Origin: Saccharothrix sp. S26
GTDB lineage: Bacteria; Actinomycetota; Actinomycetes; Mycobacteriales; Pseudonocardiaceae
Direction: 5' to 3'
DNA length: 64,000 bases
Assembly (NCBI RefSeq): GCF_021390395.1
Contig: NZ_JAJUWT010000006.1
Coordinates: 186,001-250,000 of the forward strand
In this document: positions 1-23,070 of the stretch, piece by piece
Layout: each line of letters opens with the position of its first letter
Position numbering within the stretch: position 1 is the stretch's first letter
Made by a program: the position numbers and the translations under genes
Notes under the pieces: generated by a model
Database searches by the model: none
What the model saw: only the letters and a program-made list of their open reading frames with translations
What the model was told of the DNA's origin: nothing

Positions 1-543
1 GTGCCGCGCGCCTCTACGGCAGAGGCACTGATCCGCGCCGACAGCGCGAGCAAACGTAGGGGTATTCTCGGACGACGCTGGAGGACCATCTCAGCGGACT
101 GCCGCGAGGTGGTCACAGCCTGCACGACGACGGCCGTCGCCCCGTACGTCCGCTTCGCCGTGGCCGCGCTCGACGCCCTCGATGCCGGCCACACGGAGGC
201 TGCGCAGGCACTCGCCGGTTCGCTCATTGACGCCGTCCTCAGCGCCTACTTCAAGAAGGACCGATACAAGTTCACGCCCGACCGGAAGGGCAGGCGCACG
301 AAGGACGCCTACGACGAGTTCACGGTCCGTCAGTTCATCGCGTTCGCTCCCATGTGGCAGACGTACCAGCAGTTCTTCGTCGAGGACGGAGACGTCGTGC
401 CGAACACCTTCAGTCGCAACGCGACGGCCCACACCGTGAGCCCTCGCCAGTACAGCCGTCGCAACGCGGTGCAGGCATCGATGCTCGCCTGTTCACTGTT
501 GTGCCGTCTCGACGAAGAGGCCGCAACCCGGAATGCCGCCTGA
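1..543 (+). CDS. Hypothetical protein, possibly 5'-truncated by window edge
   Basis: An open frame of 180 residues runs from a GTG at the first base to a TGA, so the true start may lie upstream of the window. The product is mostly helical in character, with an Ala-rich segment (about residues 45-80) and a charged Lys/Arg/Asp segment (about 80-105). It has no signal peptide and no membrane segment. I do not recognise a family. It reads away from the edge and is followed by an IS256 remnant, so it may be the last intact gene before the mobile-element debris. The coding call rests on frame length and codon bias only. Confidence 0.5.
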   Translation: MPRASTAEALIRADSASKRRGILGRRWRTISADCREVVTACTTTAVAPYVRFAVAALDALDAGHTEAAQALAGSLIDAVLSAYFKKDRYKFTPDRKGRRTKDAYDEFTVRQFIAFAPMWQTYQQFFVEDGDVVPNTFSRNATAHTVSPRQYSRRNAVQASMLACSLLCRLDEEAATRNAA

Positions 544-618
544 GGTCAGGCACCCGAGGACCGGCACCGCACCGGAAGTGACCCCCTTGCCCGCCGTGCG
601 TCGGATGCCGACCTCAGC

Positions 619-1671
619 GGGACTGTTGCAAGATCGGTGTGTTCGGCCCGACATGCCCAGTCGGAGGTCCGGCGGGATGGGCACTGTAAGTGATGACATC
701 TGAGCTCGTGGGGACGAGGAAGAGCAGGACCGGGACCGGGCGGCAGCCGTCGCCAGCTGTCGCCGGAGCAGGCCGCCGCGGCGGCGGTGGTGGTGGCCGA
801 GGCAGGCTCGGTGGCTGGCGCTGACCGGCCCGGACGGGCTGCTCAAGCTGTTCATTAAGAGTGTGCTGGAGACCGCCCTGGCCGAGGAGATGACCGAGCA
901 TCCCGGGCACGAGAAGAACCGGGCCGAACCGGGCTGTGAGTCGACCAATGTGCGCAACGGCACGCGGTCGAAGACGGTGATTTCGGACGCTGCCGGCGAG
1001 GTGGAGGTCGAAGTGCCCCGCGACCGGGAAGGCAGCTTCGAGCCGCAGATCGTCAAGAAGCGGCAGCGTCGTCTCACCGACTCGACGAGATCGTATCGTC
1101 GTTGTACACCAGGGGAGTGACCACCGGGGAGATCTACGGCGCCCCGGTGTCGGAGAAGACGGTCTCCCGCATCACCGAGAAGGTCTTGGCGCAGATGAAC
1201 GACTGGGCCGCCCGCCCGCTGGACGCCGTCTACGCGGCGGTGTTCCTCGACGCGATCGTGGTCAGGGTCCGTGACGGCCAGGTCGCCAACCGGCCGGTCC
1301 ATGCCGTGATCGGGGTGACCGTGGATGGGCGCGAGGACGTGCTCGGATTGTGGATGGCCGCCGGCGGCGAGGGGGCCGAGTTCTCCGACGGGCGTGCTGG
1401 TCGATCTGAAGAACCGCGGCGTCGGGGACGTGTTCTTCCTGGTCTGCGACGGTCAAGGGCCTACCGGAGGTGGTGCCAACGTGTGGCAGCGGACCGTGGT
1501 CCAGACCTGCATCGTGCATCTGATCCGCAGTACCTTCGCCGCTGGTGGCCCGTCAGGACGGGGACGCAGGTGATGATGTGCTGGAAGCCTGTGCTGAACG
1601 CCTTCGCCATCACGTTCGGTGACCGCTGGCCGAACGCCGAGAACTACTGATCAACAACGCCGGACACACCG
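619..1671 (+). mobile_element. Degenerate IS256-family (mutator-type) insertion sequence
   Basis: The transposase reads in pieces in several plus-strand frames: a part with LAEEMTEHPGHEKNRAEP (about 860-1100), then a part with GEIYGAPVSEKTVSRITEKV and a catalytic-domain segment FLDAIVVRVRDGQVANRPVH (about 1102-1390), then a frame-shifted LVDLKNRGVGDVFFLVCDG segment, and a C-terminus ending WKPVLNAFAITF before a TGA at 1650. At least three frameshifts make it non-functional. The upstream end at 619-653 is nearly identical to the end of the second copy at 41062-41096, which marks the left element boundary. An imperfect match to its reverse complement at 1659-1671 (GCCGGACACACCG) may be the right end. 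The element abuts a Tn3 fragment. Confidence 0.85.
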
Positions 1672-1683
1672 CTCACTAGATAG

Positions 1684-1983
1684 ACCTGGCACCTCCAGCG
1701 GGTCGTCGAGGAAGCGGCCGACGTAGCATACGGTCGCCAGCTGCACGGCGTAGCCGAGCCGGTTGTGGTCGCGGCGCTTGGTCTGGACCAGCGCCCGGTC
1801 GACGTTGTCGAGGACGAAGTACCGCTCCAGCTCGGCGCGGGCGAACCCACCGGTGGAACGGCCGTAGGCGGCGGCCTGGTCGTCGGACAGGAACTCAACG
1901 GGTACTGCGCCCTCCTGCTGCCTCTCGTCCGCCCACCGTGGTGGGATCGGGGCGAACTTCAGCAGCGAACGGGTTATGGTCAA
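1684..1983 (-). pseudogene. Tn3-family transposase, N-terminal (DUF4158) fragment
   Basis: The frame from an ATG at 1983 encodes VEFLSDDQAAAYGR, then RAELERYF, RDHNRLGYAVQLATVCYVG and FLDDPLEVP, the typical order of the DUF4158 domain that starts Tn3-family transposases. Only about 100 of the expected roughly 1000 residues remain. The frame breaks where the IS256 right end begins (about 1675-1690), so the rest was probably lost by insertion or deletion there. It shows that a Tn3-type unit once lay here. Confidence 0.8.
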
Positions 1984-2044
1984 CCGGTGTATGCCCTGGT
2001 CAGGCGCTAATTAGCGCTGTTTCCTGTTCCATTGTTCCTCCTCC

Positions 2045-2881
2045 CTATACGGTGGTTTTGCGCCAGGGTGCTTCGGGGTCGGCGAGGGTGTCGAGCAGGA
2101 GTTGGCACCAGGTGACCGCGGCGTTGACGGCCAGGTGTGCGTGGCGTGGGCGGAGTCCGACGCGGGCGGCGGCAGTGCCGTGTCCGGTGCCGTAGCCGCG
2201 GTTGCGCAGTTCGCCCAGTCCGGCCGTGATGGTGGTGACCGCGCCGAGGATTTTCTTGACCGCGTCGCTGCCGTCGGGGCCGGGTGCGGTCGAGGAGGGG
2301 TGCAGCCCGAGTGCTTCCTGGGCGGCCCGAGCGAGGGCGGGCAGGTCGTCCTTGTCGTTGACGGGGCGGCCTCGTTCGAGGAGCACGACCTTGGCGGTGC
2401 TCTCGACGAGTTCTTTGGCGCTGCCGATGGCCAGTGCGGGGTCATCGGGGATCGCGCGCTGGATGCGGTCGAGTTGCTCCTGGATGGCCGTGGGGTCGGT
2501 GAGCGTGGCCAGGGATCGCAGCGGCCGTAGCGGGCCTCGGTCGGCGGGTGGGGTGATCAGCCCGGTGCCGGGGTGGTCGACCGTGCACCCGTCCCTGCGC
2601 AGGGAATCGTAGAAGCGCTGGAGGTAGGGACCGTCGGGCCAGTCGATCAGCAGCCGCTCGAAGACCCGGCAGACGCGGGCGATGTGCCCCGGATGGGTCC
2701 AGTCGACGGACTCCAGGTACTGCTGGGTGGTGGTGCGTCGGACGCTGGTGTCGTCGTAGCGGCAGTCCGGGTTGGGGGCGAAGCCCTCGTCCTGGAACGC
2801 CGTGCTGATGGCGCCGACTGAGCTGTCGGTCATCAGGCTGCGGAACAGGCCGCGGGTGCTTGTGCTGATCATGTCCTTCAC
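2045..2881 (-). CDS. Abi_C-domain protein (abortive-infection C-terminus family)
   Basis: The C-terminal half carries the pattern of the Abi_C domain: a helix with AIGSAKELVESTAKVVL (about residues 152-168), then LPALARAAQEALGL, KKILGAVTTITAGLGELRNR and a final GTGHG...RHAHLAVNAAVTWCQLLL stretch. This domain ends several phage abortive-infection proteins. The N-terminal 130 residues are unfamiliar. The GTG start at 2881 overlaps the TGA of the upstream gene in a GTGA, so the two genes are translationally coupled and almost surely one operon; an in-frame ATG at 2872 is an alternative start. The role is inferred: a partner or effector of the large nuclease-like protein. No catalytic residues can be named. 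Domain call is firm, function is not. Confidence 0.75.
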   Translation of the reverse strand: MKDMISTSTRGLFRSLMTDSSVGAISTAFQDEGFAPNPDCRYDDTSVRRTTTQQYLESVDWTHPGHIARVCRVFERLLIDWPDGPYLQRFYDSLRRDGCTVDHPGTGLITPPADRGPLRPLRSLATLTDPTAIQEQLDRIQRAIPDDPALAIGSAKELVESTAKVVLLERGRPVNDKDDLPALARAAQEALGLHPSSTAPGPDGSDAVKKILGAVTTITAGLGELRNRGYGTGHGTAAARVGLRPRHAHLAVNAAVTWCQLLLDTLADPEAPWRKTTV

Positions 2882-5800
2882 CTGCTGCCCTCCTGCGGTG
2901 TCTGTGTGGGCGCTCCGGCGGTGAAGTCCGGGCGTGTGTGCTGGATCTCTGCGCGGACGGTGAACCGGCAGTCGCCGCTCAGGACCTCGCGGATGTCGTC
3001 GATGTCGGTCCTGGCGGTGCTGGTGAGCCCATGGGCCAGCGCCAGGCGCACGACTCCGGCGGGATCGGAAGCCAGTCGTCGGCCGATGCCCTCATCGCCG
3101 CTGTCGATCTCTGCCCAACAGTGGGCGGCGAAGGCACGGATCGAGGGAGAACGTGATGCGGCGAGCGCGAGCAGGTCGTTTTTGAAGGTGTCGGCCGGAG
3201 CCTGGGCCAGCGCGCTTTGCAACAGCCGGGGGTTCTCGATGTCACCGTCCATGAGGGTCAGCAACAGGTTGCGGGCGATCCGGTCGCGTTCCTGCTCGTC
3301 CGGGGCGAGGATGACCAGCAGTCTGTTCGCCGCGAGCACCAGCTCTTTCGGGGAAGCCAGCCGTCGCGGGAAAAGACCCTCGTCGCTGCCGACCCCCTGT
3401 CCGCCGGCGATCGGTCGTACGGCCTGGAGGATCGTGGCGCGGAGGTCGGTGTCGAGCGATGCGGCGCCGCATCGTTGGGCGACGGCGGCGATGGCGTCGA
3501 TCGCCTCGCGGCGCTCGACGTTCAGTTCCCGCGGTTCCAGCGCGATGTCGAGCATGGCGGCCACGAAGCGGTCACGTCGATCCGGGGCGCCGAGGTGGGA
3601 GAGGCCGGCCACGCTGACCAGGTCACTGCCGAACCCCGCGGAGCCCGGCGTGTAGGTGCGTGGTTTCGCCGCGGCCTCCAGCGCCGCGTTGGCGTGCTCG
3701 ACCACGACAGGTGTCCTCACCTCCAGTTCCCCGAGCACGGGCATGAGCCACGGCGCCTCGCCCGTCTCGACCGCACGTGACAGCCGTTCGACCAGGTACT
3801 CCTTGGCCGGCGACAGGAGCTCCAAGGCCCGGTCGAGCGCTTCCGACACCGCTTTCTCCGTCACGCACAGCAGGTCGGAGAACTGGTGCGCGGCGTCGGC
3901 CACGAGGTCGGGATGTACCCGGGCGCACCCCAGCAGGAGGTCGACGTGTGACTCGATCGAGCGCCGCAGTCCTCCCTTCCCGGCGACCGGCGCCAGGCGG
4001 GCGAGCAGTCTGCCCGCCGCGTCCCGCGGCGAGGCCCACACCAAGGCGGCCAGCGCCGTCAGCAGCGTCTCGTTCGCACCCAGGGTCGCCCAGCCGCGGA
4101 TGGGCCCCGTGGTGATCAGCCTGCCCTCCAACTTCTCGAACAACTCCCGCGCATGCTGCTCGGCGACCAGATCACCGTGCGCGCCGAGGAACTCGTACGC
4201 TGCCCTGGCCTGCCATACCGGTCCGTCGACCCACGCCTGCTCGGGCACCAGTTCGGTGTCGGGTTGCTGCCGCAACAGCGCCGTGGCCTTCTTGTGCTCG
4301 GTACCGCGCAGATAGCGGTCGACGGCCAACGGCACGTTGTCGTCGCCCAGGGCGTCGCCGAGGCTCGTGTCGCACTGGCGCTGGTTGGCCAGGGCCGCCC
4401 CGGTCGACATGCGGTGCCTCAGGCGCATGAACACGCGGTGGGCCCGGTCGCGTTGTTCGGAGGCGAGGGCTTCCAGACCGCGCGCCAGCAGCTGTTCCTT
4501 GCCCTCGAACACGGTGAGCTTATGACTGCGGGGAAGCGACTGCGCAGTGTGGTGCGTCTCGTAGCCCATGCCGGGCCCACCGAGGGCGAAACGCAGGTTG
4601 CGCAGGTCGTACAACCACGTGCGCACCTCGGCGTACATCCGCTCACGAGTGCCGGCCGCGACGGCCTGCTCGTAGTTCTCGACCGCGCCCGCGAGGTCGT
4701 TGCCCCGTGCGAGCGCCTGCCCGTGTCGGGCACGGGCCAACACGTACAGCTCGGGACCGCAGTCCGCCTCGACCGAGGCCAACAGGGGCGACCAGTCCCG
4801 ACGGCACTCCGCGACGGCGATACGCACGCGCCCGGCGAACTCCGCCGCTTCGTCGGGCGCCGCCGCCGCGTGCCCGAGGGCGCGGTCGCCCAGGCTCTCG
4901 AAGAGCTCGGGCAGACCGGCGGCGATCGCTTCTTCGGCCAGCCACAGCAACAACTCCCCGGCGAACTCGTCGTCATCGCGCACGGCTGCGACGCGTTCGG
5001 CCGCATCCGGCAACGACATGTCTCCGGCCTCGTACCGCAACACCGCGTACACCGCCGTGCCGACACGCGCACGGGCGTTCGGCGAGTGCCGGAGCTCGTC
5101 GACCAGCTTGAACTCGTCCGGGAACTGGGACGGTACCTCTCCACGCCGCACCGGCCCCCAGGCGGCAGCGACGGCCGCGCGCATCGCGGCATCGTGCTGT
5201 CCGCTTGCCCGCAGTGCCCGCGTCAGCTGCGGCTGCAGGCCGGCGGCCTGGTGGAGGTAGCCATCCGTCTGCAGGTCGGCCATCACCGACTTGTACCGCC
5301 GGGCGGCGGCCCGCGGGTCGGACTTCGACAGCTTGTCGGCTTCGGCGAGCCGGTCGCGCAGCGCACCGTCGGCGAGAGGGCCGTGGAGGACGGCATCCGG
5401 AGCGAACACCGGTCCGGCCTCGTCCGGGGGGTGGAGGATCTCCCTGCAGTCGAGTCCGTCGGCGGCAAGCTCGCCGCGCAGCTCCTGGGCGTTGGTGAAC
5501 GTCCGGTCGGCCGAGAGGTTTTCGCAGGTCACCAGCAGACTGCGCCAGGCTGTGTCGACCTGGGAAGCATCGGTCATCGTCCTGCCCAGCATGGCGTGCA
5601 CGGTCTGCAGGTCCCGTCCGCCCGGCTGGAGGTCGAACGCCATCACCCGCAACACCGAACAGAATGCGCGAAGATCCTCGCGCGCGATCTCCGAGCCGGC
5701 CTGCTGTCGCCACAGTCGTCGCACGTGCCCGGTGAAGACCGCCAGCGCCGTCCGCTCGCCCGCACTGTTGGCCAGTTGCTCCTCACCGGAGGAAGGGGGC

Positions 5801-6258
5801 GCCGTCGCGAGCCGGTTGACCACGGTCACCAGGTGGCGACGAATCGGTTCGGGAGCATCCGTGTCGGTCGCGATCACGATGCGGTCGATCGTCGGGTTCC
5901 ACTCCCGTTCCGTTCCCGGTTCCGCTGCCGCGCCCGGCGGTTTCCGACGGAACATCCGGACCGCCTGCTCGAGTGCCTGTGCCAGCGGGGACTCTTCCGT
6001 CCGGCCGAGCTTAAGGCCTTTCTTCGCCTGTACGGCGATGAAGCCCTCGTTGTCCGTGAAGGCCACGATGTCGTCGACGGGATAACCGGCCTGCAAGCCC
6101 ACATGGGTGAGCCAGCCCGCGGTGCGCGGCCATGGCCGCGTGGCACTGGTGGGCAGGCGGGTTCCCGTCACCACGTGCGCGGCCAGCAACGCGCCCACCT
6201 GTATCTCGAACCGGAAGCCGCCAGCCGCTGCCGATCCCCCGCCGCTACTGGTCGCCAT
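2878..6258 (-). CDS. Large protein: PD-(D/E)XK-like N-terminal module plus TPR/HEAT-like helical repeats
   Basis: The 1126-residue product begins with FRFEIQVGALLAAHVV (E18), then VDDIVAFTDNEGFIAVQAKK, where D62/D63 and the Q77-A-K79 pair fit the metal and lysine positions of PD-(D/E)XK nucleases (E...D...QxK variant). Residues 250-1100 are almost wholly alpha-helical, Ala/Leu-rich and look like TPR units (e.g. DLAGAVENYEQAVAAG) and, near the C-terminus, HEAT-like units (SPSIRAFAAHCWAEI, ASDPAGVVRLALAHGL). No ATPase, helicase or reverse transcriptase motif is visible. The architecture resembles nuclease-plus-repeat sensor proteins of antiphage systems, but I cannot match it to a named one. 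It is first in an operon with the Abi_C gene (GTGA overlap). The fold assignment from motif spacing is inference. Confidence 0.7.
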   Translation of the reverse strand: MATSSGGGSAAAGGFRFEIQVGALLAAHVVTGTRLPTSATRPWPRTAGWLTHVGLQAGYPVDDIVAFTDNEGFIAVQAKKGLKLGRTEESPLAQALEQAVRMFRRKPPGAAAEPGTEREWNPTIDRIVIATDTDAPEPIRRHLVTVVNRLATAPPSSGEEQLANSAGERTALAVFTGHVRRLWRQQAGSEIAREDLRAFCSVLRVMAFDLQPGGRDLQTVHAMLGRTMTDASQVDTAWRSLLVTCENLSADRTFTNAQELRGELAADGLDCREILHPPDEAGPVFAPDAVLHGPLADGALRDRLAEADKLSKSDPRAAARRYKSVMADLQTDGYLHQAAGLQPQLTRALRASGQHDAAMRAAVAAAWGPVRRGEVPSQFPDEFKLVDELRHSPNARARVGTAVYAVLRYEAGDMSLPDAAERVAAVRDDDEFAGELLLWLAEEAIAAGLPELFESLGDRALGHAAAAPDEAAEFAGRVRIAVAECRRDWSPLLASVEADCGPELYVLARARHGQALARGNDLAGAVENYEQAVAAGTRERMYAEVRTWLYDLRNLRFALGGPGMGYETHHTAQSLPRSHKLTVFEGKEQLLARGLEALASEQRDRAHRVFMRLRHRMSTGAALANQRQCDTSLGDALGDDNVPLAVDRYLRGTEHKKATALLRQQPDTELVPEQAWVDGPVWQARAAYEFLGAHGDLVAEQHARELFEKLEGRLITTGPIRGWATLGANETLLTALAALVWASPRDAAGRLLARLAPVAGKGGLRRSIESHVDLLLGCARVHPDLVADAAHQFSDLLCVTEKAVSEALDRALELLSPAKEYLVERLSRAVETGEAPWLMPVLGELEVRTPVVVEHANAALEAAAKPRTYTPGSAGFGSDLVSVAGLSHLGAPDRRDRFVAAMLDIALEPRELNVERREAIDAIAAVAQRCGAASLDTDLRATILQAVRPIAGGQGVGSDEGLFPRRLASPKELVLAANRLLVILAPDEQERDRIARNLLLTLMDGDIENPRLLQSALAQAPADTFKNDLLALAASRSPSIRAFAAHCWAEIDSGDEGIGRRLASDPAGVVRLALAHGLTSTARTDIDDIREVLSGDCRFTVRAEIQHTRPDFTAGAPTQTPQEGSR

Positions 6259-6763
6259 CCGCGAACCCTAGCGGTCGCGCGCCCGGCCGGGCCGTCATCC
6301 GCGACGCGGACCCGCGGGCAACGACCTTGGGCGTCTGCCTTTGGCGGGACTCGGCGAGCAGAAGGCACGATTTGGTGGAGACCACGCAGGCCGCCCGCGA
6401 CCTTTTGGGCGGCCTGCGCGAAGCTGCTCGGCGAGTGGACCCGCCTGCCCAGCTCGGTGGTCATCGACCGATCCCGCGAGTGACCCGACTCGGCATCACA
6501 TGACGCCGCAGTCGGAAGCCGTGTCATCCGGAGGCGACGCCGTTGCTTCCCGAACCGCGGAGGAGCGGCGGTGGCCCGGCTGTCACGGACGAAGTCCCCT
6601 TCGCCCGGACCGGCTGGATTCGCTCGTCCGCCGGACGAGGCGGTGTGCCGCCATGTGGGTGTAGGCAGTGCACTGTTCGGGTGTCAATTCCATGAGTTTG
6701 CGTCAGCCCACCGGTACGGAGTCGTCACGTAGGGCATCCACTGCCCGTCGGCGAAGGTGACAG
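6259..6763. other. Intergenic region between divergent defence operon and recombinase operon
   Basis: About 500 bases with no convincing gene. The frames present are short, Arg/Pro-rich and typical of non-coding high-GC DNA. It must hold the promoters for the leftward 1126-residue gene and the rightward recombinase, but I cannot point to clear -35/-10 boxes. A GAAGGTGA ribosome-binding site precedes the ATG at 6764. Confidence 0.5.
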
Positions 6764-8194
6764 ATGACGACATCCATGACTGATCAGGATCTACTGGACG
6801 GCTGGTTGCAGGGCAAACAGCGTAAGGGTGAGCGGAGGCGTTCGCAGGACCCGCACGTGCACCTTGGGTTGCGGTTCGCGTTCTACGGGCGGATGTCGAC
6901 CTCGGAGTACCAGGACCGGTACTCCTCGCGGTTGTGGCAGCGGGAGGTGTGCGAGCGCCTGGTCGCCGGGTACGGGGTGGTCGCGTCGGAGTTCTTCGAC
7001 GAGGGCGCCTCGCGACGGCGTCGGTGGTCCAACCGGCCGGAGGCGGCGCGGCTGTTGGAGGCGTTGGCCGACCCGGACCGCGGGTTCGACGCGATCGTGG
7101 TGGGCGAGTACGAGCGGGCGTTCTGCGGTCGTCAGTTCGACGAGCTGGTACCGCTGCTGCGTGCGGTCGGGGTGCAGGTGTGGCTGCCGGAGGTCGGTGG
7201 CCGAGTGGACCTGGATGACGACGAGCACCGTCGGTTGATGACGTTTCTGGGTGCGCAGTCGGAGCGGGAGGTGATCCGGGCGCGCAACCGGGCACTGGCG
7301 GCGATGAAGGCGCAGGCCGAGTTGGGCCGCTATCTGGGTGGACGTCCGCCGTACGGGTACATGCTGGTCGACGGCGGACCGCATCCCAGGCGTGCAGATG
7401 CTCGATGGGGACGCCGTGCGCAGAAGCTCGCACCTGATCCGCGCACCGCCGGATACGTGAAGTGGATGTTCGCCCGTCGGTTGAGCGGGGTGTCGGTAGC
7501 AGGGATCGCCCGTGAGCTGAACGAGCGTGGTGTGCCGTGCCCGTCGGCGGCGGATCGAGGGCGTAACCGGCACCGCTCGGGTGAGGGATGGAGGGTGCAG
7601 TCGGTGCAGACGATCCTGGAGAACCCGCGCTACACCGGCCGTCAGGTCTGGAACAGGGTCGCCAACGACCGCGACGAGGTCGACCTGCACACCGGACGGC
7701 CGGGACAGGTACCGAACCAGCCGCAGGACTGGGCGATCTCACTGGAGGTCGTGCACACGCCGTTGGTGAGTATGCGCGACTTCACCGCGGCCCAGAACGT
7801 GCGCGCCCGACGCCCCAACGACGACGGCGGTGAACGTCGGTACCTGTTGTCGGGTTTGGTGGTGTGCGGGGTGTGCGGGCGGCGGATGGACGCGCACTGG
7901 GTGCACGGACGTCCCGGCTATCGGTGCCGTCACGGCTACAGCAGTGCCCGCCCACGCCTGGCGGATGGGCCCAGGCCGCTGTACTGGCGTGAGGATCGTC
8001 TGCTGGAAGACATCCCGGTTGCTGCGGCGTCCGCGGGTTTCGCGCGGCCAGCCGTGGGCGCCGACATGGTGGTGTTTCTGCGCGAGAAGGATATGACCAT
8101 TGCCTGCGGGCACCGAGGGATCGAAGTCGTTGGAGGTCTGATGCCTGCCCTGTCGTCGCGGGGTTCGGTGCTGACCGACGATGCACTACGGTGA
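6764..8194 (+). CDS. Serine recombinase (resolvase/invertase domain, recombinase domain, zinc ribbon)
   Basis: The 476-residue protein has the order of serine recombinases: catalytic domain with FYGRMSTSEYQDR (nucleophile Ser about residue 46, the usual RxSTxxQ variant), DAIVVGEYERAF (the usual DR arginine segment), and SEREVIRARNRALAAMKA leading to helix E; then a recombinase domain with YLGGRPPYGY, GIARELNERGVPCP and ILENPRYTGRQVWNR; then a zinc ribbon CGVCGRRMD...YRCRHG. The C-terminus is short and lacks the long coiled coil of phage integrases. Start ATG 6764 follows GAAGGTGA. The next gene starts 6 bases after its stop. A close paralogue lies at 9721-11118. Its substrate is unknown; excision/integration of this island or inversion are options. 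Confidence 0.9.
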   Translation: MTTSMTDQDLLDGWLQGKQRKGERRRSQDPHVHLGLRFAFYGRMSTSEYQDRYSSRLWQREVCERLVAGYGVVASEFFDEGASRRRRWSNRPEAARLLEALADPDRGFDAIVVGEYERAFCGRQFDELVPLLRAVGVQVWLPEVGGRVDLDDDEHRRLMTFLGAQSEREVIRARNRALAAMKAQAELGRYLGGRPPYGYMLVDGGPHPRRADARWGRRAQKLAPDPRTAGYVKWMFARRLSGVSVAGIARELNERGVPCPSAADRGRNRHRSGEGWRVQSVQTILENPRYTGRQVWNRVANDRDEVDLHTGRPGQVPNQPQDWAISLEVVHTPLVSMRDFTAAQNVRARRPNDDGGERRYLLSGLVVCGVCGRRMDAHWVHGRPGYRCRHGYSSARPRLADGPRPLYWREDRLLEDIPVAAASAGFARPAVGADMVVFLREKDMTIACGHRGIEVVGGLMPALSSRGSVLTDDALR

Positions 8195-8200
8195 GCGGCC

Positions 8201-9511
8201 ATGTCCGAGGGTGAACAGGACGCGGTGGGTTCCGCGATCTCGGGTGCCGTGCCTCCACGGTCCCGGGAGGCGGAGGGGCGGCTGTTGTTGCGTCGTCTGG
8301 TCGCTCCATTGGTGCGGGCGGGCTGGTCGGAGGCCACGGTCGAGGAGTGGTACGACGACGAAGATCCGGACCGGGGAGGTGCCGAGGTCGCGGAGGTCAC
8401 CGTCGAGTTGGAGCGGTCGGGCTTCCACCTGCTTGTGTCGTGGAATCCTGTGACGGGTCTGCTGGTAGTCGCGGACCCGACCGAGGGTTGGGATTGGGAC
8501 GACGGACTGTTGCCGCCGCTGTTCCCGCTTGACGAGGAGATCACCGTAGACCTGGCCGGCGAGAGTTCGCAGGCCGTTCGTGCCGAGACCGCACGTCGGG
8601 CGTTCGCGGCCGCAGGACTGCTGGATGCCACGAGGATCCGGCTGTCCGAACCGGCTACCTTCCTGCACGCCGATCTGGTCATGTCCTTCCGGGCCGACTA
8701 CGTGCATGACGCGGCCATACGTCACCGTGGGCGTGACGACCTCGCCGGGGTGTATGCGTCGCTGGGCGAGGAGTTCTCCTGGCGGATCGCCTCGGGGATG
8801 CGCGCCTATCCGCTGATCGTGCCTGCGGCGGTGCCGTCGGCCGCGGCGCGGGGGATCGCGGAGTGGTGCTGGCGCCGGGAGAGCGTGGTCGAGGAGTGGC
8901 ACCACAAGGTCGACGACCTCACGATGGCACGTGCCAACATCGCCGCCACCCGGGCGGTCCTGCCCCACGTGCACCTCGAAGGTGTCGACTGGCCCGCCGT
9001 GCGCCTGGCTCTGACCTTCCCTGGTCGGCGCCTGGCCGACGGCCGCGCCCTGGTCGGGCTGTTCGATGACGGCTGGGAACCGATCCTCGCCTCGATCCAC
9101 GGCCAGGTGGACCTGTGGCAGCGCGCGGAGGACGAACTCGGACCGCAGACCGTGCTGGCGTTGCTGAGCATGCACGGCTCGCGCACCGAGTCCGTCGGCG
9201 ACTGGTGGGGCTCGGGGCACTTCGAGACCCTCACTCGACTGGTGATCGAGAATGGGGCACAGGTCGGCAAGCTGCCTCGGACGGCGCTGGAGTTGTTCGC
9301 CGACGCGGATCGGTTCGCCGACATCGCCGCCCACGCCCCCGACGTCCTCGACGACGACCTCCTGTACTGGCTTACCCGCGCCATCTTCGATGAACAGTCC
9401 CGACGCCGTATCGAAGGGGAACCCGACACCGCCGTCGTCACCTTGCCCGACTGGGTGACTGAGGAACTCACCGAGCTGCTCACGACCGACCGCGACGACA
9501 CGTCCTCCTGA
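8201..9511 (+). CDS. Hypothetical protein located between two serine recombinases
   Basis: A 436-residue acidic, soluble protein rich in Trp and Asp/Glu, without membrane segments or a recognisable catalytic motif. The N-terminal third contains a beta-rich stretch (VTVELERSGFHLLVSWNP, LLVVADPTEGWDWDD); the middle and C-terminal parts look helical (TMARANIAATRAVLPHV, WQRAEDELGPQTVLALL). It begins 6 bases after the stop of the upstream recombinase and is clearly cotranscribed with it. A 209-base gap separates it from the second recombinase. Tight linkage suggests an accessory factor for the recombinases or a cargo gene. No family is recognised. Confidence 0.7.
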   Translation: MSEGEQDAVGSAISGAVPPRSREAEGRLLLRRLVAPLVRAGWSEATVEEWYDDEDPDRGGAEVAEVTVELERSGFHLLVSWNPVTGLLVVADPTEGWDWDDGLLPPLFPLDEEITVDLAGESSQAVRAETARRAFAAAGLLDATRIRLSEPATFLHADLVMSFRADYVHDAAIRHRGRDDLAGVYASLGEEFSWRIASGMRAYPLIVPAAVPSAAARGIAEWCWRRESVVEEWHHKVDDLTMARANIAATRAVLPHVHLEGVDWPAVRLALTFPGRRLADGRALVGLFDDGWEPILASIHGQVDLWQRAEDELGPQTVLALLSMHGSRTESVGDWWGSGHFETLTRLVIENGAQVGKLPRTALELFADADRFADIAAHAPDVLDDDLLYWLTRAIFDEQSRRRIEGEPDTAVVTLPDWVTEELTELLTTDRDDTSS

Positions 9512-9720
9512 CCGGGGGCAGTGCCGACAACACAGCCACGAAGCCGGCGAGGTCACTCGATCGCGGGTTGTGTCCGTGATCCCGTTGTCGGGGCGTCGAT
9601 GTCGTGACGGCCCGGATCGGACAGCGGGGTGATGGTGTGCGGCCGATCGGGCCTGTCCCAATCCATGTTCTTGCCACCGTGCCAGCCTCGAAGTTCGAGT
9701 GTGGACGAGGGAGGCGGATC

Positions 9721-11118
9721 GTGGCGGCCTTGTGCGACCGAGATGTGCTGACCGACTGGATGGGACTGTGGACCGAGGACGACGCCTACGGTGCCCGCGG
9801 AGTCCATCCAGGACCTGCCGTGGTAGACGGGTTGCGGTTCGCCTTTTACGGCCGTACCTCGACCATTGAGCACCAGGACCCGGAGACCTCGCGGGCGTGG
9901 CAGTTGGAGGTGTGCGAGGACCTGGTCGCCGGGCACGGCCGGATCGTGGTGAGCTTCTTCGACGCCGGGAGGCCACGGCGTGATCGGTGGCGGGATCGGC
10001 CGGAAGCGGCGGAGCTGTTGGCGGCGATCCGGGATCCGAATCGCGGGTTCGACGCGATCGTGGTGGGGGAGTTCGAGCGCGGGTTCGCCGGGGATCAGAT
10101 CGAGCACGTCGTGGCGCTGTGCCGCAGACACGGTGTACAGGTGTGGCTGCCCGAGGCGGGCGGTCCGCTGGACCTGGACAACGCCGAGCACCGGGCACTG
10201 ATCCGGATGCTGGGCGCGCAGGCGCTCCGCGAGGTCGTACGCGCCCGGCACCGGGCGATGGCCGCCATGCGTGTTCAGACCCGTGATCACGGCCGCTACC
10301 TGGGCGGGCGTGCCCCCTACGGCTACCGGTTGGTGCCCGCAGGCGCGCACCCGAACCTGGCCGAGGCGCGTCGCGGTCGGTGCGTCTACCGCCTGGAGCC
10401 CGACCCGGACACCGCACCCACGGTGCGGTGGCTGTTCACCGAGCGTCGAGCCGGGCGCAGCGTGCAGGACCTGGTCGTCACGCTCAACCGGCAAGGTACG
10501 CCATGCCCGGCCGAGCATGACCCCGAGCGCAACCAGCATCGGACACGTCGTCGGTGGACCGCGCAGTCGGTGGCGTCGATCCTGTCCAATCCGCGCTACA
10601 CCGGTTGGCAGGTGTGGAACCGGCAGAGCGTCGACCACGACCATCACACTCCCGGCGAGCGCAGGCGGCGCCGCGTCACCAGGTGGAACCCGAGCAACCG
10701 CTGGGTCGTCTCCCGGCAGCGCTCCCACGCCCAACTGGTCAGCGAAGCCGACTTCGTCGCAGTCCAGCGACTGCGCTCGAACCGCCCTAACCGGGAGGGA
10801 GAGTCCCGCGAGTACTTGTTCGCCGGGCTGTTGCGCTGCGGCGTCTGTGGCCGGCGGATGGACAGCCACTGGGTGCACGGCCGTGCTGGCTACCGCTGCC
10901 GCCACGGCCGCACCGGTCCCCGTACCGGGCACACCCTGGCCACGCTGTACCTGCGCGAGGACCACCTGATCACCAGGATCAGCCATGCCTTGCACATGCC
11001 CGTGGCCGCGAGCCCGAGCCGGGTTGCCGCGCAGCTCCGCGCCCGCCATGTGATCATCGTGTGCACCGCCGACGGAGTGTCGGTCGAGACGCTCCGCCCG
11101 GTCCTGCGGGCCGCATAA
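9721..11118 (+). CDS. Second serine recombinase, paralogue of the 6764-8194 gene
   Basis: The protein aligns with the first recombinase along its whole length and, judged by eye, about half the residues agree: LRFAFYGRTSTIEHQD (catalytic Ser), GFDAIVVGEFERGFAG, RYLGGRAPYGYRLV, ILSNPRYTGWQVWNR and the zinc ribbon CGVCGRRMDSHWVHGRAGYRC. The open frame extends back to 9604, but GTG 9721 is preferred: it has GAGGGAGG seven bases upstream and gives an N-terminus (DRDVLTDWM) that matches the paralogue (DQDLLDGWL), yielding 465 residues. All catalytic positions seen in the first copy are kept. The pair may act as a heteromer, a feature seen in some multi-recombinase mobile units; that is inference. 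Confidence 0.88.
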   Translation: MAALCDRDVLTDWMGLWTEDDAYGARGVHPGPAVVDGLRFAFYGRTSTIEHQDPETSRAWQLEVCEDLVAGHGRIVVSFFDAGRPRRDRWRDRPEAAELLAAIRDPNRGFDAIVVGEFERGFAGDQIEHVVALCRRHGVQVWLPEAGGPLDLDNAEHRALIRMLGAQALREVVRARHRAMAAMRVQTRDHGRYLGGRAPYGYRLVPAGAHPNLAEARRGRCVYRLEPDPDTAPTVRWLFTERRAGRSVQDLVVTLNRQGTPCPAEHDPERNQHRTRRRWTAQSVASILSNPRYTGWQVWNRQSVDHDHHTPGERRRRRVTRWNPSNRWVVSRQRSHAQLVSEADFVAVQRLRSNRPNREGESREYLFAGLLRCGVCGRRMDSHWVHGRAGYRCRHGRTGPRTGHTLATLYLREDHLITRISHALHMPVAASPSRVAAQLRARHVIIVCTADGVSVETLRPVLRAA

Positions 11119-11126
11119 AGACGAAA

Positions 11127-11166
11127 CCACGGGTTCGATCTGATAAAAGCAAGATCGAACCCGTGG
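11127..11166 (+). terminator. Perfect 15-bp stem hairpin after second recombinase
   Basis: Arms 11127-11141 and 11152-11166 (CCACGGGTTCGATCT and its exact reverse complement) enclose a 10-base loop, followed by GGTAAAAC. It lies 9 bases after the recombinase stop. The position and strength fit a transcription terminator, though there is no long T tract. Confidence 0.8.
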
Positions 11167-11202
11167 GGTAAAACTGTGTCCGATTTGCCCGAACACGCAT
11201 CT

Positions 11203-11300
11203 GTGGGGAATTTCCCACTCGCCTCGAAGGGGAGTGGCTCATAAGTCCAGCTTAGCAGGGGTCTGGGGTGTCGTCGCAAGAGTGGGAAAGTTCCCACTCG
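11203..11300. promoter_or_regulatory. Pair of near-identical 19-bp palindromes
   Basis: GTGGGGAATTTCCCACTCG (11203-11221) and GTGGGAAAGTTCCCACTCG (11282-11300) differ at two positions. Both are dyads; the second is perfect over 20 bases (GAGTGGGAA-AG-TTCCCACTC, 11280-11299). Their centres lie 79 bp apart, upstream of the large unknown gene and downstream of the recombinase terminator. They could be operators for a dimeric repressor of the 11590 gene or recombinase binding sites. The dyads are seen directly; the function is inference. Confidence 0.6.
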
Positions 11301-11589
11301 AACTTTCGTCCAGTGAAATCGGCAGGGGTCTTTACGGTCGCACTCGGTAGTCGCCGTTCGGTCGGGAGGGTGCTCCTTGGTCGGTCGGAAGCCCGAGTCG
11401 CGAAATGCGGTTGATTGACTTCGGGCGACGCAAAATCCATTCCGTTCTACGGATTTGCGACCCGCCTTCGGTGCGATCTCGTTACGTTTCGTGATCCGCT
11501 GACTGTCCACATTGTCGGTGCGGTGGCGTACGGTGCCCGGAACCGCGGACTGGCTTCGTCTGCGGGTGGATCGCGGGTGGGAGGGCGTC

Positions 11590-14292
11590 ATGGGCGGCCG
11601 GAGGAGCAAGGCGAAGTCGGGTGAGCAGGAGCTGCTTCGTCAGCGTCGGAAGCATGAGCGTGCGGTGCTGGCTGCCTTGTCCGGTTTCGGTGATTTGTTG
11701 GCTGCCGTACACGTGATCGTGTCCTCGCCGTTGGGGATGCACCGGCATTTGACTTTGTCGTATGCGGTGAGGCTGGCGTTGCGGGCGGCGGTGCAGCGGC
11801 GTCCTGCGGTGCGGGCGGTGGGTGGTATGCGTGAGCTGATGGAGTCGCTGGTGGCGTTGGCCGGGCCCGCGGCGTCGTTGGAGGACGAGGTTCCTTGGGA
11901 TCCGCGAGTGCCCGCCGTGGGGGTCTTCCTCGGCCGGCCGTACCGGTTGTATCCGGGGATGTTGGAGCGTCCGTTGGCGTCGCTGCGGACGGCGGAGCTG
12001 GTCGCCCAGGCTGTGGACCCGGCTTTGAGGCGCATGGTGGGGTTCGGTGTGAATAACTGGGTCGAGGTGTTCCTGATGCACACCGAGCGGGTGGTCGAGA
12101 TCCTGGCGCCTGCGTGGCCTGCGGACGGCGAACCGGAGGTTGGGGACCTCCCGGTGGTTGGCACTGAGGAAATGCGGGCCGCTGAGGAAGTTCTGCTGTG
12201 GACTGCGCTGGGACCGGAGGCGACGGAGGAACAGCGCAAGGCGCTGGAGTGGGGCACGATCCCGCTGGGTCGGCTGGAGGTCGACCTGCGGATGATGACC
12301 ACGTGCTTCGGTAGGGCTGTTGCAGTGTCCGGTCCTGGTGGTGCGCGGTATGCGCTTCCGCTGCCGTACGTGACCGAGGCGTGGGAGTCCGGCATCGCGC
12401 AGTTGGCTGCCCGGGCTGCGGCGCGGTCGTGGCGGTCGCAGCAGGAGTGGCTGCGGATCGCGCGGGGTGAGGTCGGCAAGCTGCTGCACTCGCTGCACGA
12501 TCTTCCGCCCGCTGACGTGTTCCAGGGACCTGCGGGGCCGGTGATGCTCATCTTCTACGGGCGACGCCACGTCCTGGCTCTTGCGGTCGCGGCGCAGATT
12601 GGACCTGAGGGTGGTGTCCGTGAGGCCGAGACCGCGTTGGCCGCGATCACACCGGGCGTCACCGTGCCCACCGATGCCGGGCCGCTGACCCTGCCGGAGG
12701 ATGTGGAGATCGTGCGGGTGGTGGTGACCGCGCTGATCGGCACCTCGTTCATCGGGGTGACCGAGCCGGTCGCGATGATTTCTCTGGAGGACCTGGCGTG
12801 GATCGTCAAGACGTGTGAGCGTTCGGACGAGCTGTGGGCGTTCTTCCACGAGCAGGTGGTCACCAACGCGGATGTGCAGATGTTCGGTTGGGAGCCGGTG
12901 AATACCTGGCAGACGTGGCGGGCCAACGGTCAGGCGCTGCATCGCGCGGGGTTGCCGCCCACCGGCATCATGGTCGCCCTGCACCAGGTCGGTGACGAGG
13001 AGTGGGAGCTGGCGGGGCGGCGGGTCCCGCTGGAGTGGGCGTTGCACCGGCTCGGCCTGCCGCCGGTCAACCAGTTGGCGGTCGTCATGTCGGAGGGCGA
13101 TCCGGTCAGCTTCGTGTCCGCGGACAGGACCGTGTGGGCGTTGGGTCTGCTCGATCGTGCGGATCCGTGGCACGGGCCGCTGTTCGCCGAGGTCCTGCGG
13201 GGGTCGATGCCATCGCATCTGGTGGCGTTCGCGTTCGACATGGTAGGGACGGCGTGCCGGGTGGCGCTGCAACTGCGAGACGAGACCATAGCGGTACTGC
13301 GTGCTTGCGGCCTCGATCGGCTGGTGGTCGAGTTCGCGTACGAGGATGCCTCTGGCGAACCATTGACACTGGAAGGAGGTGAGGGCGGTGAGGGCGGGAT
13401 CGTCATCCGGTGGACTTCCTCCCTGCAGCACCATGAGGTCGAGAACCCCGGATACGTTCAGCGCCGACTCGGTGAGCTGATCACGACCGCGTTGCTGCGC
13501 AACTGCGGCAACGATCAAGCAGCGGCGATCGAGTCTTTGGCCGCCGCCTGGCCCACCGCGACCCGAGTGCTGGTGGTCTCGGCCGAGACCACCTTGAACG
13601 AGGCTCTCGACATGCGGCGGCCCGCGCCGGTGCCGGGGTGGGCGGTGTCGCAGGCCAACAGGCTGCTCGGCGTCCACCTGGTTCGCAGCGGACAAGCGGC
13701 GGGGCGTCGCGACCACGCCGAGTCCAGGGCACTCGAATTGGAGGTGATTCTGCCCTGGCTGCGTCACCAGGTGGAAGAGAGGTTCGCACGCTTCGACGCC
13801 TCTGCGGTGCTGCACCGGGCTGCGGAGGAGATCGAAGCAGTCGCCTTCACACGCGAGGCGCACCGACGTCAACGTTCGAATCGTACGCAGATGCCACCGC
13901 GCTTGTCGGAGACCGGTGATCCGGTACTCGAACCGGACGGCGAGAGCCCTTTGGTCAAGCAGTCGGCGGTTCTGGCGACGCTGATGGAACTCGCCCTGGT
14001 GGCCGATCGGCAGGGCACAGCTGAACCCGATGACATCGAGTGGGCCCACCTGCTGGCATTGGCCGGTTTGTTCGTCGACTCCACCACCCGCGCCGACGCC
14101 CTGCTGCACGAGATGAGCGGCGAAGTGACCGACGTGTCCGACCGCTTCGAGATCACCCTCCACACCGGGGAGTCCACGGCCGTCGACATCGAGGCGTTCA
14201 ACGACGCCCGCCAACGCCATTACCAGCGGACGACCACGCGACCCGATACCGAGCAGGGACGCGGCCCTGACCCCAGGGAGATCCTGGCCTAG
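11590..14292 (+). CDS. Large hypothetical protein, in frame with downstream nuclease ORF
   Basis: A 900-residue protein from ATG 11590 (GGGAGGG nearby upstream; the frame is open from GTG 11512). It starts with a basic segment (GGRRSKAKSGEQELLRQRRK) and is then mixed helix/strand with many Val/Leu/Trp and acidic residues. No Walker, helicase, protease or methylase motif is visible. It stops at TAG 14290-14292, and the same frame stays open after that codon for another 297 codons into a PD-(D/E)XK-type nuclease ORF. The following ORF has no good ribosome-binding site, so this may be the N-terminal two-thirds of a roughly 1200-residue protein split by an amber codon, or the first of two cotranscribed genes. 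Family unknown; a nuclease-associated defence role is inferred from context. Confidence 0.65.
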   Translation: MGGRRSKAKSGEQELLRQRRKHERAVLAALSGFGDLLAAVHVIVSSPLGMHRHLTLSYAVRLALRAAVQRRPAVRAVGGMRELMESLVALAGPAASLEDEVPWDPRVPAVGVFLGRPYRLYPGMLERPLASLRTAELVAQAVDPALRRMVGFGVNNWVEVFLMHTERVVEILAPAWPADGEPEVGDLPVVGTEEMRAAEEVLLWTALGPEATEEQRKALEWGTIPLGRLEVDLRMMTTCFGRAVAVSGPGGARYALPLPYVTEAWESGIAQLAARAAARSWRSQQEWLRIARGEVGKLLHSLHDLPPADVFQGPAGPVMLIFYGRRHVLALAVAAQIGPEGGVREAETALAAITPGVTVPTDAGPLTLPEDVEIVRVVVTALIGTSFIGVTEPVAMISLEDLAWIVKTCERSDELWAFFHEQVVTNADVQMFGWEPVNTWQTWRANGQALHRAGLPPTGIMVALHQVGDEEWELAGRRVPLEWALHRLGLPPVNQLAVVMSEGDPVSFVSADRTVWALGLLDRADPWHGPLFAEVLRGSMPSHLVAFAFDMVGTACRVALQLRDETIAVLRACGLDRLVVEFAYEDASGEPLTLEGGEGGEGGIVIRWTSSLQHHEVENPGYVQRRLGELITTALLRNCGNDQAAAIESLAAAWPTATRVLVVSAETTLNEALDMRRPAPVPGWAVSQANRLLGVHLVRSGQAAGRRDHAESRALELEVILPWLRHQVEERFARFDASAVLHRAAEEIEAVAFTREAHRRQRSNRTQMPPRLSETGDPVLEPDGESPLVKQSAVLATLMELALVADRQGTAEPDDIEWAHLLALAGLFVDSTTRADALLHEMSGEVTDVSDRFEITLHTGESTAVDIEAFNDARQRHYQRTTTRPDTEQGRGPDPREILA

Positions 14293-15772: not shown

Positions 15773-16789
15773 TCAGAGTGAATAAGGGCTGGTCGGTAGG
15801 TGCATGATCGGATTACAGCGTTCGCAGAGGACTCGGCCTGGGCGCCTCCACAGAAGGTGTTCACCACACCCCTCACACTCCACGCTCGAGTCGGCAAGGT
15901 GCGACGCGTTGTAGCAATCGGTGGGCTCTGACGAGGCGCGGTCGGTCTCCGACGGTATTTTCGGGGTGTAGCGGGCAGGGCCTCCGGTCAGCGACTCGTA
16001 GAGTCGCAGGTCGTTCGGTGGGACCAGGTACACGATCCGGCCGGTGGTCATGAGTGGCACCGCTTTGCCAGCGGGGACCAGAGCCGCCACGTGATCCAGC
16101 GTCAGACCTGCCCACGGGTTGAGCTTCGGGTGATCGCCACCGCAGTGGCGGCGGTTGGTCGGGCATGTCTTGAAGTTGTGCACGGTGCACTTGGCGATGT
16201 CGACTCGGCGCAGACCGGTGGCCACGGCCGAGCCCCTGGGAGGAAGGTTGTCCCACGGGATGTGGTTGCAGCCCACCGAGGGCACCCGGTGGAACCACTT
16301 CGGTAAGCGCTCTGCGGGGGTGAACCACAGCGACAACCAGCCGGCTCGATGTGATCGAGCGGTGCGGCCACTCGCTGTCGACAGGTTGATGCGGGAGAGC
16401 TGGACCTCCACGCCGGTAGGGGTGGGCCCATGGATGGCGACGTCGAGGATGCTCCCGGTGCTCGTCGTGAACTCGGTGTCGCTGCGGTAGCCGGCGTCGT
16501 CGCCGGCCCGGTGCCAATACTCTTTCTGCCGCTTGTGCTCGTCGCTCTCTCGGACGATCTCATGCGTGCCATGGCCGCCGCCCGCGAAGTGGCTCGCGTA
16601 GTACTTGCCGTCGCGCCTGCGGACGAACATCTCGTCGTGGCCAGACACCGCTGGTTCCAGGCAGAGCAGCACGCGGTCGCCGCGCCCGATCTTGCCCCGC
16701 AGCGAGGAGACCGTCTGATAATCGCTCTCGGAGAGACGGGAGAGGTCCAACTCGCGGTTGTCCGGGACGTACAGCACACGCGTCGTCAT
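15773..16789 (-). CDS. CoiA-like nuclease-domain protein with C-terminal zinc finger
   Basis: The 338-residue protein contains the CoiA-type pattern ESDEHKRQKEYW (about 81-92), an acidic strand TEFTTSTGSILDVAIH (D116) and GVEVQLSRI (E128, Q130), in the order H/K...E...D...ExQ typical of CoiA-family nuclease-like domains, which belong to the PD-(D/E)XK superfamily. Near the C-terminus CEGCGEHLLWRRPGRVLCERC gives two CxxC pairs for a zinc ribbon. CoiA proteins were named from competence, but actinomycete members are uncharacterised and a DNA-processing role is the safest reading. It reads leftward, alone, with the Wadjet operon starting its stop side 330 bases away. Start ATG 16789. Confidence 0.7.
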   Translation of the reverse strand: MTTRVLYVPDNRELDLSRLSESDYQTVSSLRGKIGRGDRVLLCLEPAVSGHDEMFVRRRDGKYYASHFAGGGHGTHEIVRESDEHKRQKEYWHRAGDDAGYRSDTEFTTSTGSILDVAIHGPTPTGVEVQLSRINLSTASGRTARSHRAGWLSLWFTPAERLPKWFHRVPSVGCNHIPWDNLPPRGSAVATGLRRVDIAKCTVHNFKTCPTNRRHCGGDHPKLNPWAGLTLDHVAALVPAGKAVPLMTTGRIVYLVPPNDLRLYESLTGGPARYTPKIPSETDRASSEPTDCYNASHLADSSVECEGCGEHLLWRRPGRVLCERCNPIMHLPTSPYSL

Positions 16790-22161: not shown

Positions 22162-22173
22162 CGTCCACTACTT

Positions 22174-23070
22174 TCATTCACCGCTGTCGGCGGCGTGGTC
22201 GGGTGCCGTCGCGGTGACGGAGGCAGCAGGAGAGTGGTCGGCGGGCGTGGTCGGGCCCCCGGCGCCGTCGGTGTTCTGTTGCCGCAGCCAGGCGAGCAGT
22301 TCGGTGAGCCTGGACAGCGGCATGAGCGTGTCGATGGCGCGTGCGACCTCGAACCGCTCACCGGTTTTGCGGCCGATCAGCAATCCGGTCTTGAACACCT
22401 TCTCGATCGCCCGCTCGACCCTGCCGCGGTCACCGACCTTATCGGTGGCGTGGGCGGGCCGGAACCGTGTCACGTAGTCGTGGATGTCGTCGCGGTCGAC
22501 GAACACCCGGCCGGTGCCGGCGGCCTGCTCGGTATGCGACCGGGTGCGCAGGCACAGCAGCACGATGGTCTCCTCGCGGGTCCACGCCTGGTCGTAGAAC
22601 AGCGTCGGGAATCGTCGTCCGCCACCCTCCGGTGTCGCCTGCCGGGTGAAGGCGACCTCACGCTGGGTGTCCAATTCCAGGACCATGAACAGGTCGTTGA
22701 GGCGGGCGCGGATGGGGCGTGGATTGCCGACGAGAGTCCGCCAGTCCCGTGGGTGGGTCTGGGCGCTGATGAACGGATGTTTGATCAGGTGCACCAAAGC
22801 TTGCCGTTGGGCGAACAACAACGCGCCCTCGTCGCTCTCGAACAGCGAGAGCGTCGAGGTGCTTTCCGTGTCGCCGTCGTCGTCCAGGTCGGGGAACTCC
22901 TCGCCCACACGGCCGTGCGCATCGGGCTTCTCCGGCTCAGGCCATGCCGTCGTGTCCTCGACATCGGTATCTGCGGTCGGGTCACCGATCGATGTGGCCT
23001 GATCCTGCGTGCTGCGGGATGTCACGACGTGCAGGGACGCGGCGGGCTCGTCGCCGAGGTTGTGGATCAT
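22174..23070 (-). CDS. jetB: Wadjet protein JetB (DUF4194, MukE-like)
   Basis: The 298-residue protein is the winged-helix, KITE-type subunit (DUF4194) that bridges the kleisin-like JetA. The core runs from about residue 85 (RQALVHLIKHPFIS) through RARLNDLFMVLELDTQREVAF, REETIVLLCLRTRSHTEQ and FVDRDDIHDYVTRF to KVFKTGLLIG, an order typical of MukE-like proteins. The N-terminal 70 residues are acidic and variable. Its ATG at 23070 overlaps the jetA stop as ATGA, and jetC begins 12 bases downstream. Confidence 0.9.
   Translation of the reverse strand: MIHNLGDEPAASLHVVTSRSTQDQATSIGDPTADTDVEDTTAWPEPEKPDAHGRVGEEFPDLDDDGDTESTSTLSLFESDEGALLFAQRQALVHLIKHPFISAQTHPRDWRTLVGNPRPIRARLNDLFMVLELDTQREVAFTRQATPEGGGRRFPTLFYDQAWTREETIVLLCLRTRSHTEQAAGTGRVFVDRDDIHDYVTRFRPAHATDKVGDRGRVERAIEKVFKTGLLIGRKTGERFEVARAIDTLMPLSRLTELLAWLRQQNTDGAGGPTTPADHSPAASVTATAPDHAADSGE

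Follow-up and report, generated by a model that had tools for sequence, protein, structure and literature searches.

In Avs and other STAND NTPase sensors, a nuclease, TIR or protease effector at the N-terminus is joined to a repeat sensor at the C-terminus. They are effector-swapping immune sensors, and most of them are assembled by means of an NTPase. The vWA-MoxR ternary systems, too, mostly use an NTPase for assembly; their exchange of effectors is described in part in Kaur 2020 (PMC7159879). Constant cores with exchanged effectors, as well as Trypco domains, are described in sections of Kaur 2020 (PMC7159879) and Kaur 2021 (PMC8195603), among them a TPR-GreA/B-C-PIN core for which 13 different effectors are given. 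Anantharaman 2013 (PMC3710099) assigned AbiJ to the HEPN superfamily, whose members carry an Rx4-6H motif and are predicted to be RNases. PADLOC lists a further candidate system, PDC-M54, consisting of M54A and M54B, on which we found no paper in the open-access literature. The principle of effector exchange is already known; the repeat body of the protein P1 described here differs in that it is without GreA/B-C and PIN. In the open-access literature on repeat-based defence sensors we found nothing recognisable as the P1 body family, and the figure legends of DefensePredictor (PMC13092281) that name TPR proteins are too brief for a comparison.

Gene Organization and Genomic Setting

A first-pass annotation of the window (the whole stretch of DNA analysed here, 64,000 nucleotides) had described two open reading frames coupled by a GTGA overlap. 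Both were confirmed from the sequence:

2878..6258, minus strand: P1, 1126 aa, with a PD-(D/E)XK-like N-terminus and a TPR/HEAT solenoid (ORF, AlphaFold2 model, dN/dS 0.267)
2045..2881, minus strand: P2, 278 aa, abortive-infection (Abi_C / AbiJ-like) protein (ORF, Pfam, PADLOC, model)
2878..2881, minus strand: GTGA overlap of the P1 stop and the P2 start (sequence)
1651..1983, minus strand: DUF4158 fragment, downstream of P2 (Pfam, E 2.8e-18)

The GC3 bias of both ORFs is of the coding type. Positions 1–6351 of the window are 97% identical to contig NZ_JAHXGQ010000003.1 of S. obliqua, which puts the source genome in or very near Saccharothrix; the similarity stops about 90 bases upstream of P1. 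The S. obliqua copies share 1091 of 1126 residues with P1 and 271 of 278 with P2. With 47 synonymous and 35 nonsynonymous changes in P1 (dN/dS 0.267), and 10 and 7, respectively, in P2 (dN/dS 0.251), the substitution pattern of both genes looks like that of purifying selection, and both therefore appear to be maintained. Only fragments of P1 were found in S. coeruleofusca (L008), in genome G083 and at a second site on the window's own contig. Taken alone, the GTGA overlap is a hint of translational coupling rather than of a joint function.

The recombinases and the Wadjet operon that had been reported nearby were recovered with Pfam and PADLOC. The plus strand encodes two large serine recombinases with Resolvase, Recombinase and zinc ribbon matches, at 6764–8194 and 9604–11118, and the 436-aa gene between them (8201–9511) had no Pfam or PADLOC match. 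JetA, JetB and JetC lie at 18433–24680 on the minus strand, 12 kb from P1-P2, with best PADLOC E values of 1.4e-161, 1.4e-84 and 0; JetD was not found in one further gene tested (15773–16789, no PADLOC or Pfam match). Directly downstream of P2 lie the DUF4158 fragment (1651–1983), which we take to derive from a Tn3-type transposase, and remnants of a Mutator-family transposase (863–1650); this entire stretch (863–1983) is also present in S. obliqua. On the same contig, outside the window, locus L013 encodes a 1582-aa protein (7172–11920, minus strand) whose NACHT and HEAT matches stay below threshold; the adjoining gene (11991–12947, minus strand) matches the PDC-M68A and CBASS HNH/endonuclease models. 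This gene pair is likely another defence locus.

A Predicted Nuclease Domain at the N-Terminus of P1

The following features were assigned to the N-terminal part of P1:

5440..6258, minus strand: P1 residues 1–273, PDC-M54A-type nuclease domain (PADLOC match; alpha-beta-beta-beta-alpha-beta order in the model)
6070..6075, minus strand: P1 D62-D63, predicted metal-binding acid(s) (identical in 12/12 rows)
6022..6030, minus strand: P1 Q77-A-K79, QxK part of the nuclease motif (Q77 and K79 identical in 12/12 rows; end of the third core strand in the model)

P1 matched no Pfam family above the cut-off and none of NCBIfam, the latter scan covering P1 and P2 alone. The PADLOC model for the PDC-M54A N-terminus matched residues 6–273 with an E value of 1.6e-38; together with a second M54A-type match (E 1.4e-36) residues 4–273 are spanned, and the profile match stops at 273. 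D62, D63, Q77, K79 and Q98 are identical in all 12 aligned M54A-type N-termini. E18 and K79 had been put forward as sites for mutants. K79 is conserved but E18 is not: position 18 is occupied by Q in seven of the 12 rows, by E in two, by R in two and by a gap in one.

A PD-(D/E)XK domain is expected to show the order helix-strand-strand-strand-helix-strand. In the AlphaFold2 model of P1 (17 alignment rows, pLDDT 78.1, pTM 0.61) the N-terminus is composed of a helix (12–31), three strands (50–55, 64–68, 73–78), a second helix (91–105) and a further strand (126–132), and D62, D63, Q77, K79 and Q98 sit on or beside these core elements. Structure prediction, which had been suggested as a check of the N-terminus, gave a PD-(D/E)XK-like topology, and together with the invariant D62, D63, Q77 and K79 this supports the proposed nuclease-like start of P1. 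When the full P1 model was used as query, no named nuclease was among the best 50 of 1118 Foldseek matches in the PDB, and a profile of the nuclease domain found no nuclease among PDB sequences. The PD-(D/E)XK call therefore rests on topology, motif and family, by which the P1 N-terminus is likely a PD-(D/E)XK-like DNA-cutting domain.

The Solenoid Body of P1 and Its Distribution

The remainder of P1 is formed by the body:

2926..5436, minus strand: P1 residues 275–1111, solenoid body, TPR-like and then HEAT-like (profile matches, 16 other loci besides S. obliqua; all-helical model)

It comprises about 835 residues, of which 287–1106 were modelled by AlphaFold2 as helices only. The best 50 of the 1118 Foldseek matches of P1 in the PDB are mostly HEAT/TPR proteins; karyopherins, the SKI-complex TPR protein and PP2A PR65 solenoids, all with low TM-score, are among the matches listed. 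The C-terminal part of the body profile matched the HEAT repeats of PP2A PR65 (E 1.5e-5), which, along with the all-helical model, is in agreement with the TPR/HEAT-like body proposed in the first-pass annotation. A Walker A motif was present in none of 15 body proteins versus all 13 PDC-M54A-type controls. Judged by its sequence, the P1 body is without a recognisable NTPase. The body proteins resemble Avs and other STAND sensors in joining an N-terminal effector to a C-terminal repeat sensor, but differ from them in lacking a recognisable NTPase.

We also considered the EAD10 / TPR-GreA/B-C-PIN core, which, in the sections of PMC8195603 that describe it, likewise consists of a constant repeat core that is combined with many different effectors at the N-terminus, REase, TIR and trypsin among them. 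However, residues 287–1106 of P1 are all-helical, and neither the model nor Pfam revealed GreA/B-C or PIN. The P1 body was rejected as a core of this kind because these domains are absent.

Body matches were found in 4 of 345 genomes of the window's class, 4 of 396 genomes of the phylum, 5 of 25 genomes of the window's genus, 3 of 118 genomes of the genus of G116 and 2 of 120 genomes of the family of G388 (each count includes the centre genome, and the genome samples overlap with one another). One of the four matches in the phylum, G905, was dropped: it covers 87 profile positions only, and by eye its frame resembles a generic HEAT protein. In 72,556 plasmid records there were ten matches to the G123 body (six of these were examined), six to that of G1060 and none to that of the window. 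No P1 relative was detected in phage records and viral contigs. Within the scope of these searches (Actinomycetota genomes, plus plasmids, phages and viral contigs) the body family looks rare and patchy.

Different N-Terminal Effectors on the P1 Body

The effector survey included 15 full body proteins; Pfam and PADLOC were each run on eight body proteins. The M54A-type nuclease tip is found in three of the 15, namely in the window, in S. obliqua and in G1167. For G1167 the M54A-type assignment (genome search 4.0e-7, BLASTP 1.6e-4) is moderate, because its N-terminus was missed by the local nuclease profile at E 0.01. Eight proteins joined by BLASTP (G123, G899, one from Gordonia, three from Rhodococcus and two from Streptomyces) carry a second nuclease-like tip. 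A single weak Pfam match, Mrr_cat in G899 (E 0.069, below the cut-off), was obtained for this type, which we name Mrr-like by its motif. The N-terminus of G388 is nuclease-like by eye only. In G1024, which belongs to the window's own genus, the tip is TIR_2 (32.9 bits, cut-off 28). G1060 has a Trypsin_2 tip (33.9 bits, cut-off 27.6) that matches the N-terminus of Avs1b (E 1.2e-6), and Trypco2 is encoded beside it (74 bits). The N-terminus of G116 looks helical and has no assigned domain; a TIR gene (65.3 bits) follows 21 nt downstream.

In a tree of the bodies G1167 (nuclease) is the sister of G1024 (TIR), with starred support of 98/96. The tree would also be compatible with one common origin of the three M54-type proteins (support 59/61), and several of its branches are long or open in placement. 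Taken together, the P1 body recurs in Actinomycetota behind N-terminal domains that are predicted to be interchangeable effectors. A scattered family with differing killing tips suggests a defence sensor.

The neighbourhoods of the body genes differ. By our own gene calls, the body gene of G123 starts 13 nt after type I hsdM-hsdS-hsdR (hsdR-like) genes and adjoins a CBASS cyclase and 4TM effector; the solenoid gene is part of a single gene run between the type I restriction-modification operon and the CBASS cyclase/4TM pair (L010:3352-15443). The Gordonia body gene is located downstream of DUF1156 and DUF499 genes, and Mov34 and ThiF genes lie 3.3–3.9 kb from the body gene of Rhodococcus ZPP. 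In G1060, a partial Dsr1 match (E 1.3e-14) was shown by a gene at a distance of 3.5 kb from the body gene. The neighbours tested at G899 (two), G1024 (one) and G1029 (one) had no PADLOC match, and a second gene beside the G1029 body gene matched a TPR model alone.

P2 Is Probably an AbiJ-Type HEPN Protein

Two features were assigned within P2:

2090..2341, minus strand: P2 residues 181–264, Abi_C domain (Pfam PF14355, E 5.4e-24)
2180..2206, minus strand: P2 R226...H234, HEPN-like motif (R-N-x6-H = Rx7H; conserved in 18 rows)

The Abi_C domain that had been noticed in the second protein was recovered with 84.5 bits versus a Pfam cut-off of 24, and P2 also matched AbiJ of PADLOC (E 4.9e-10). R226, G231, G233 and H234 are identical in all 18 family rows, N227 in 16 of them. 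The predicted structure (pLDDT 80.2, pTM 0.55) is mainly helical. As best PDB match Foldseek returned the HEPN protein 2hsb with a probability of 0.99 but an E value of 0.32, followed by 1wol and the sacsin HEPN domain 3o10_C (probability 0.89, E 1.2 and 1.6); nothing was obtained at E <= 0.001, and a P2 profile found no HEPN among PDB sequences. In its Abi_C domain, PADLOC AbiJ match, R-N...H motif and helical model P2 resembles the AbiJ family HEPN proteins as characterised in the corresponding part of PMC3710099. It differs from the Rx4-6H spacing given there by its Rx7H; of the 18 family rows, 11 have Rx7H and seven have Rx6H. By family, P2 is probably an AbiJ-type HEPN protein that would cut RNA.

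Homologues of P2 are common. Within the order, 21 of 249 genomes have one (the window's genome counted), as do 86 of 72,556 plasmid records; among the 40 plasmid matches listed, "abortive infection family protein" is a frequent annotation. One P2 relative was present in viral contigs.

The Combination of P1 and P2 Is Restricted to Two Close Strains

The first-pass annotation had raised the two-gene operon of nuclease-repeat and Abi_C proteins as a possible undescribed defence system. A conserved two-gene system was not supported: the P1-P2 pair is common only to the window and the near-copy in S. obliqua. In the gene-neighbourhood search, which had been set beforehand as the refuting test, P1 homologues were not adjacent to Abi_C genes beyond S. 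obliqua: the Abi_C profile had no match beside any of the 16 other body-bearing loci (flanks of 0.6 to 8.7 kb; L092, L093 and L096 are body fragments), while the positive control L007 was detected. For G1060 only 567 bases downstream of the body gene are available, so a partner is possible there. Conversely, neither the P1 body nor an M54-type nuclease was found beside P2 homologues at 21 other wide loci, which consist of 13 loci from 12 genomes (covering 14 of the 22 matches of the order search outside the window's genome), seven of the 86 plasmid records and one viral contig. P1 modules were also absent from 22 narrower loci with P2 homologues (L018–L039, about 3 kb). In two Rhodococcus plasmids (NZ_CP130954.1 and NZ_CP113952.1) a body protein and a P2 homologue are encoded in one record, far apart.

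The gene upstream of P2 homologues varies. In G132, GTGA again forms the overlap, here between a serine recombinase and a homologue with 81% identity (start inferred by homology); the alignment of this homologue to P2 begins at the start codon. Because this homologue overlaps an unrelated recombinase in the same manner, the GTGA overlap alone is no proof of partnership. In G058 a DUF6308 gene is located 326 nt upstream of the P2 homologue, and some other homologues have no close upstream gene. Abi_C protein genes were also seen 12 nt downstream of an Mrr_cat nuclease gene in G245 (L043:6582-8291) and 54 nt downstream of a SMODS CD-NTase gene in G040 (L045:6814-8658); both pairings are possibly undescribed. 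The simplest reading of the P1-P2 pair is one recombination product common to two close strains.

Discussion

We lean towards the reading that P1 is an immune sensor built on a solenoid without an NTPase, that its effectors are interchangeable, the one in P1 being a DNase, and that P2 would be either a second effector, an RNase of the HEPN type, or a passenger coupled to P1. The data show the gene structure, the substitution pattern, the domain families, the differing effectors on one body and the lack of Walker A; the mechanism given below is a proposal. The location of some body genes among restriction or CBASS genes and the dN/dS of about 0.25–0.27 for both genes are further points for a sensor. 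As a member of a family scattered among actinobacteria, P1 would combine immune sensor and effector inside the cell. The TPR/HEAT solenoid of P1 would most likely bind an infection cue, e.g., a phage protein, and this binding would release or dimerise the N-terminal PD-(D/E)XK domain, which is then predicted to cut DNA. P2, as an AbiJ-type HEPN protein, would probably cut RNA and lead to a growth stop. It may serve as a second, suicidal arm whose start overlaps the end of P1; we consider any working cooperation of P1 and P2 doubtful.

It has nearly an even chance that P1 and P2 are two independent defence genes joined by recombination at the overlap, P2 being a mobile abortive-infection cassette that uses varied upstream genes for its translation. 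The G132 homologue, aligned from its start codon and overlapping a serine recombinase by GTGA, the 21 loci with P2 homologues and no P1 modules, and the transposase remnants just downstream of P2 all point in this direction. Against it stand the overlap kept in two strains and the low dN/dS of both genes, although the persistence of the overlap in two strains is weak either way because it represents one event. The same overlap and the intact genes with low dN/dS in two strains can be read in favour of a true two-gene system, in which P1 and P2 form one complex with P1 as the sensor and P2 as the principal toxin (or with P1 holding P2 in check). Such a system also finds parallels among eight examined plasmid loci with M54A-type genes: in two of them an M54B gene overlaps by 4 nt, and in one a HEPN_LA2681 gene follows after 122 nt. 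We nevertheless regard it as rather unlikely. Abi_C is lacking beside all 16 body loci beyond S. obliqua, including G1167 with the same nuclease kind, P2 homologues lie next to a recombinase, an Mrr nuclease or a CD-NTase or have no close upstream gene, and the other five of the eight plasmid loci show neither arrangement (one of the five is without annotation). The HEPN_LA2681 gene mentioned above, on a Gemmobacter fulvus plasmid (L080:3719-10290), has a weak TPR match and occupies the place expected for M54B.

The M54A-type N-terminus of P1 (E 1.6e-38) and the 4 nt overlap of a second gene, as at the two M54A loci, are likenesses to PDC-M54. Membership of P1-P2 in PDC-M54 was rejected, however, as P1 has neither a Walker A NTPase nor the M54A C-terminus, and P2 matches AbiJ and not M54B (E values of 1.2e-188 and 2.5e-159 were obtained for two genuine M54B partners). 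That P1 is a degenerate PDC-M54A which lost its NTPase is very improbable: its approximately 835 C-terminal residues belong to a different family that also carries TIR, trypsin and other nuclease tips, and the scanned M54A-type loci had no body profile match, except for the window, S. obliqua, the S. coeruleofusca fragment and G1167.

Of the possible undescribed defence system in the first-pass annotation, the PD-(D/E)XK-like N-terminus, the TPR/HEAT body, the Abi_C partner and the setting among defence genes are supported; a conserved pair is not, beyond the near-copy in S. obliqua. Returning to P1 as a sensor, we tentatively suggest, at somewhat less than even confidence, that its body represents an unnamed class of immune receptors: an NTPase-free TPR/HEAT solenoid that would sense an infection product directly and fire a fused or recruited N-terminal effector, which may be one of two kinds of PD-(D/E)XK nuclease, a TIR domain, a trypsin-like protease or the TIR protein of a neighbouring gene. 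If this is true, the family would suggest that repeat-mediated recognition can work without an NTPase switch, with the same effector classes placed on a bare helical solenoid, and it would offer a simple one-gene platform to find the phage product that is sensed.
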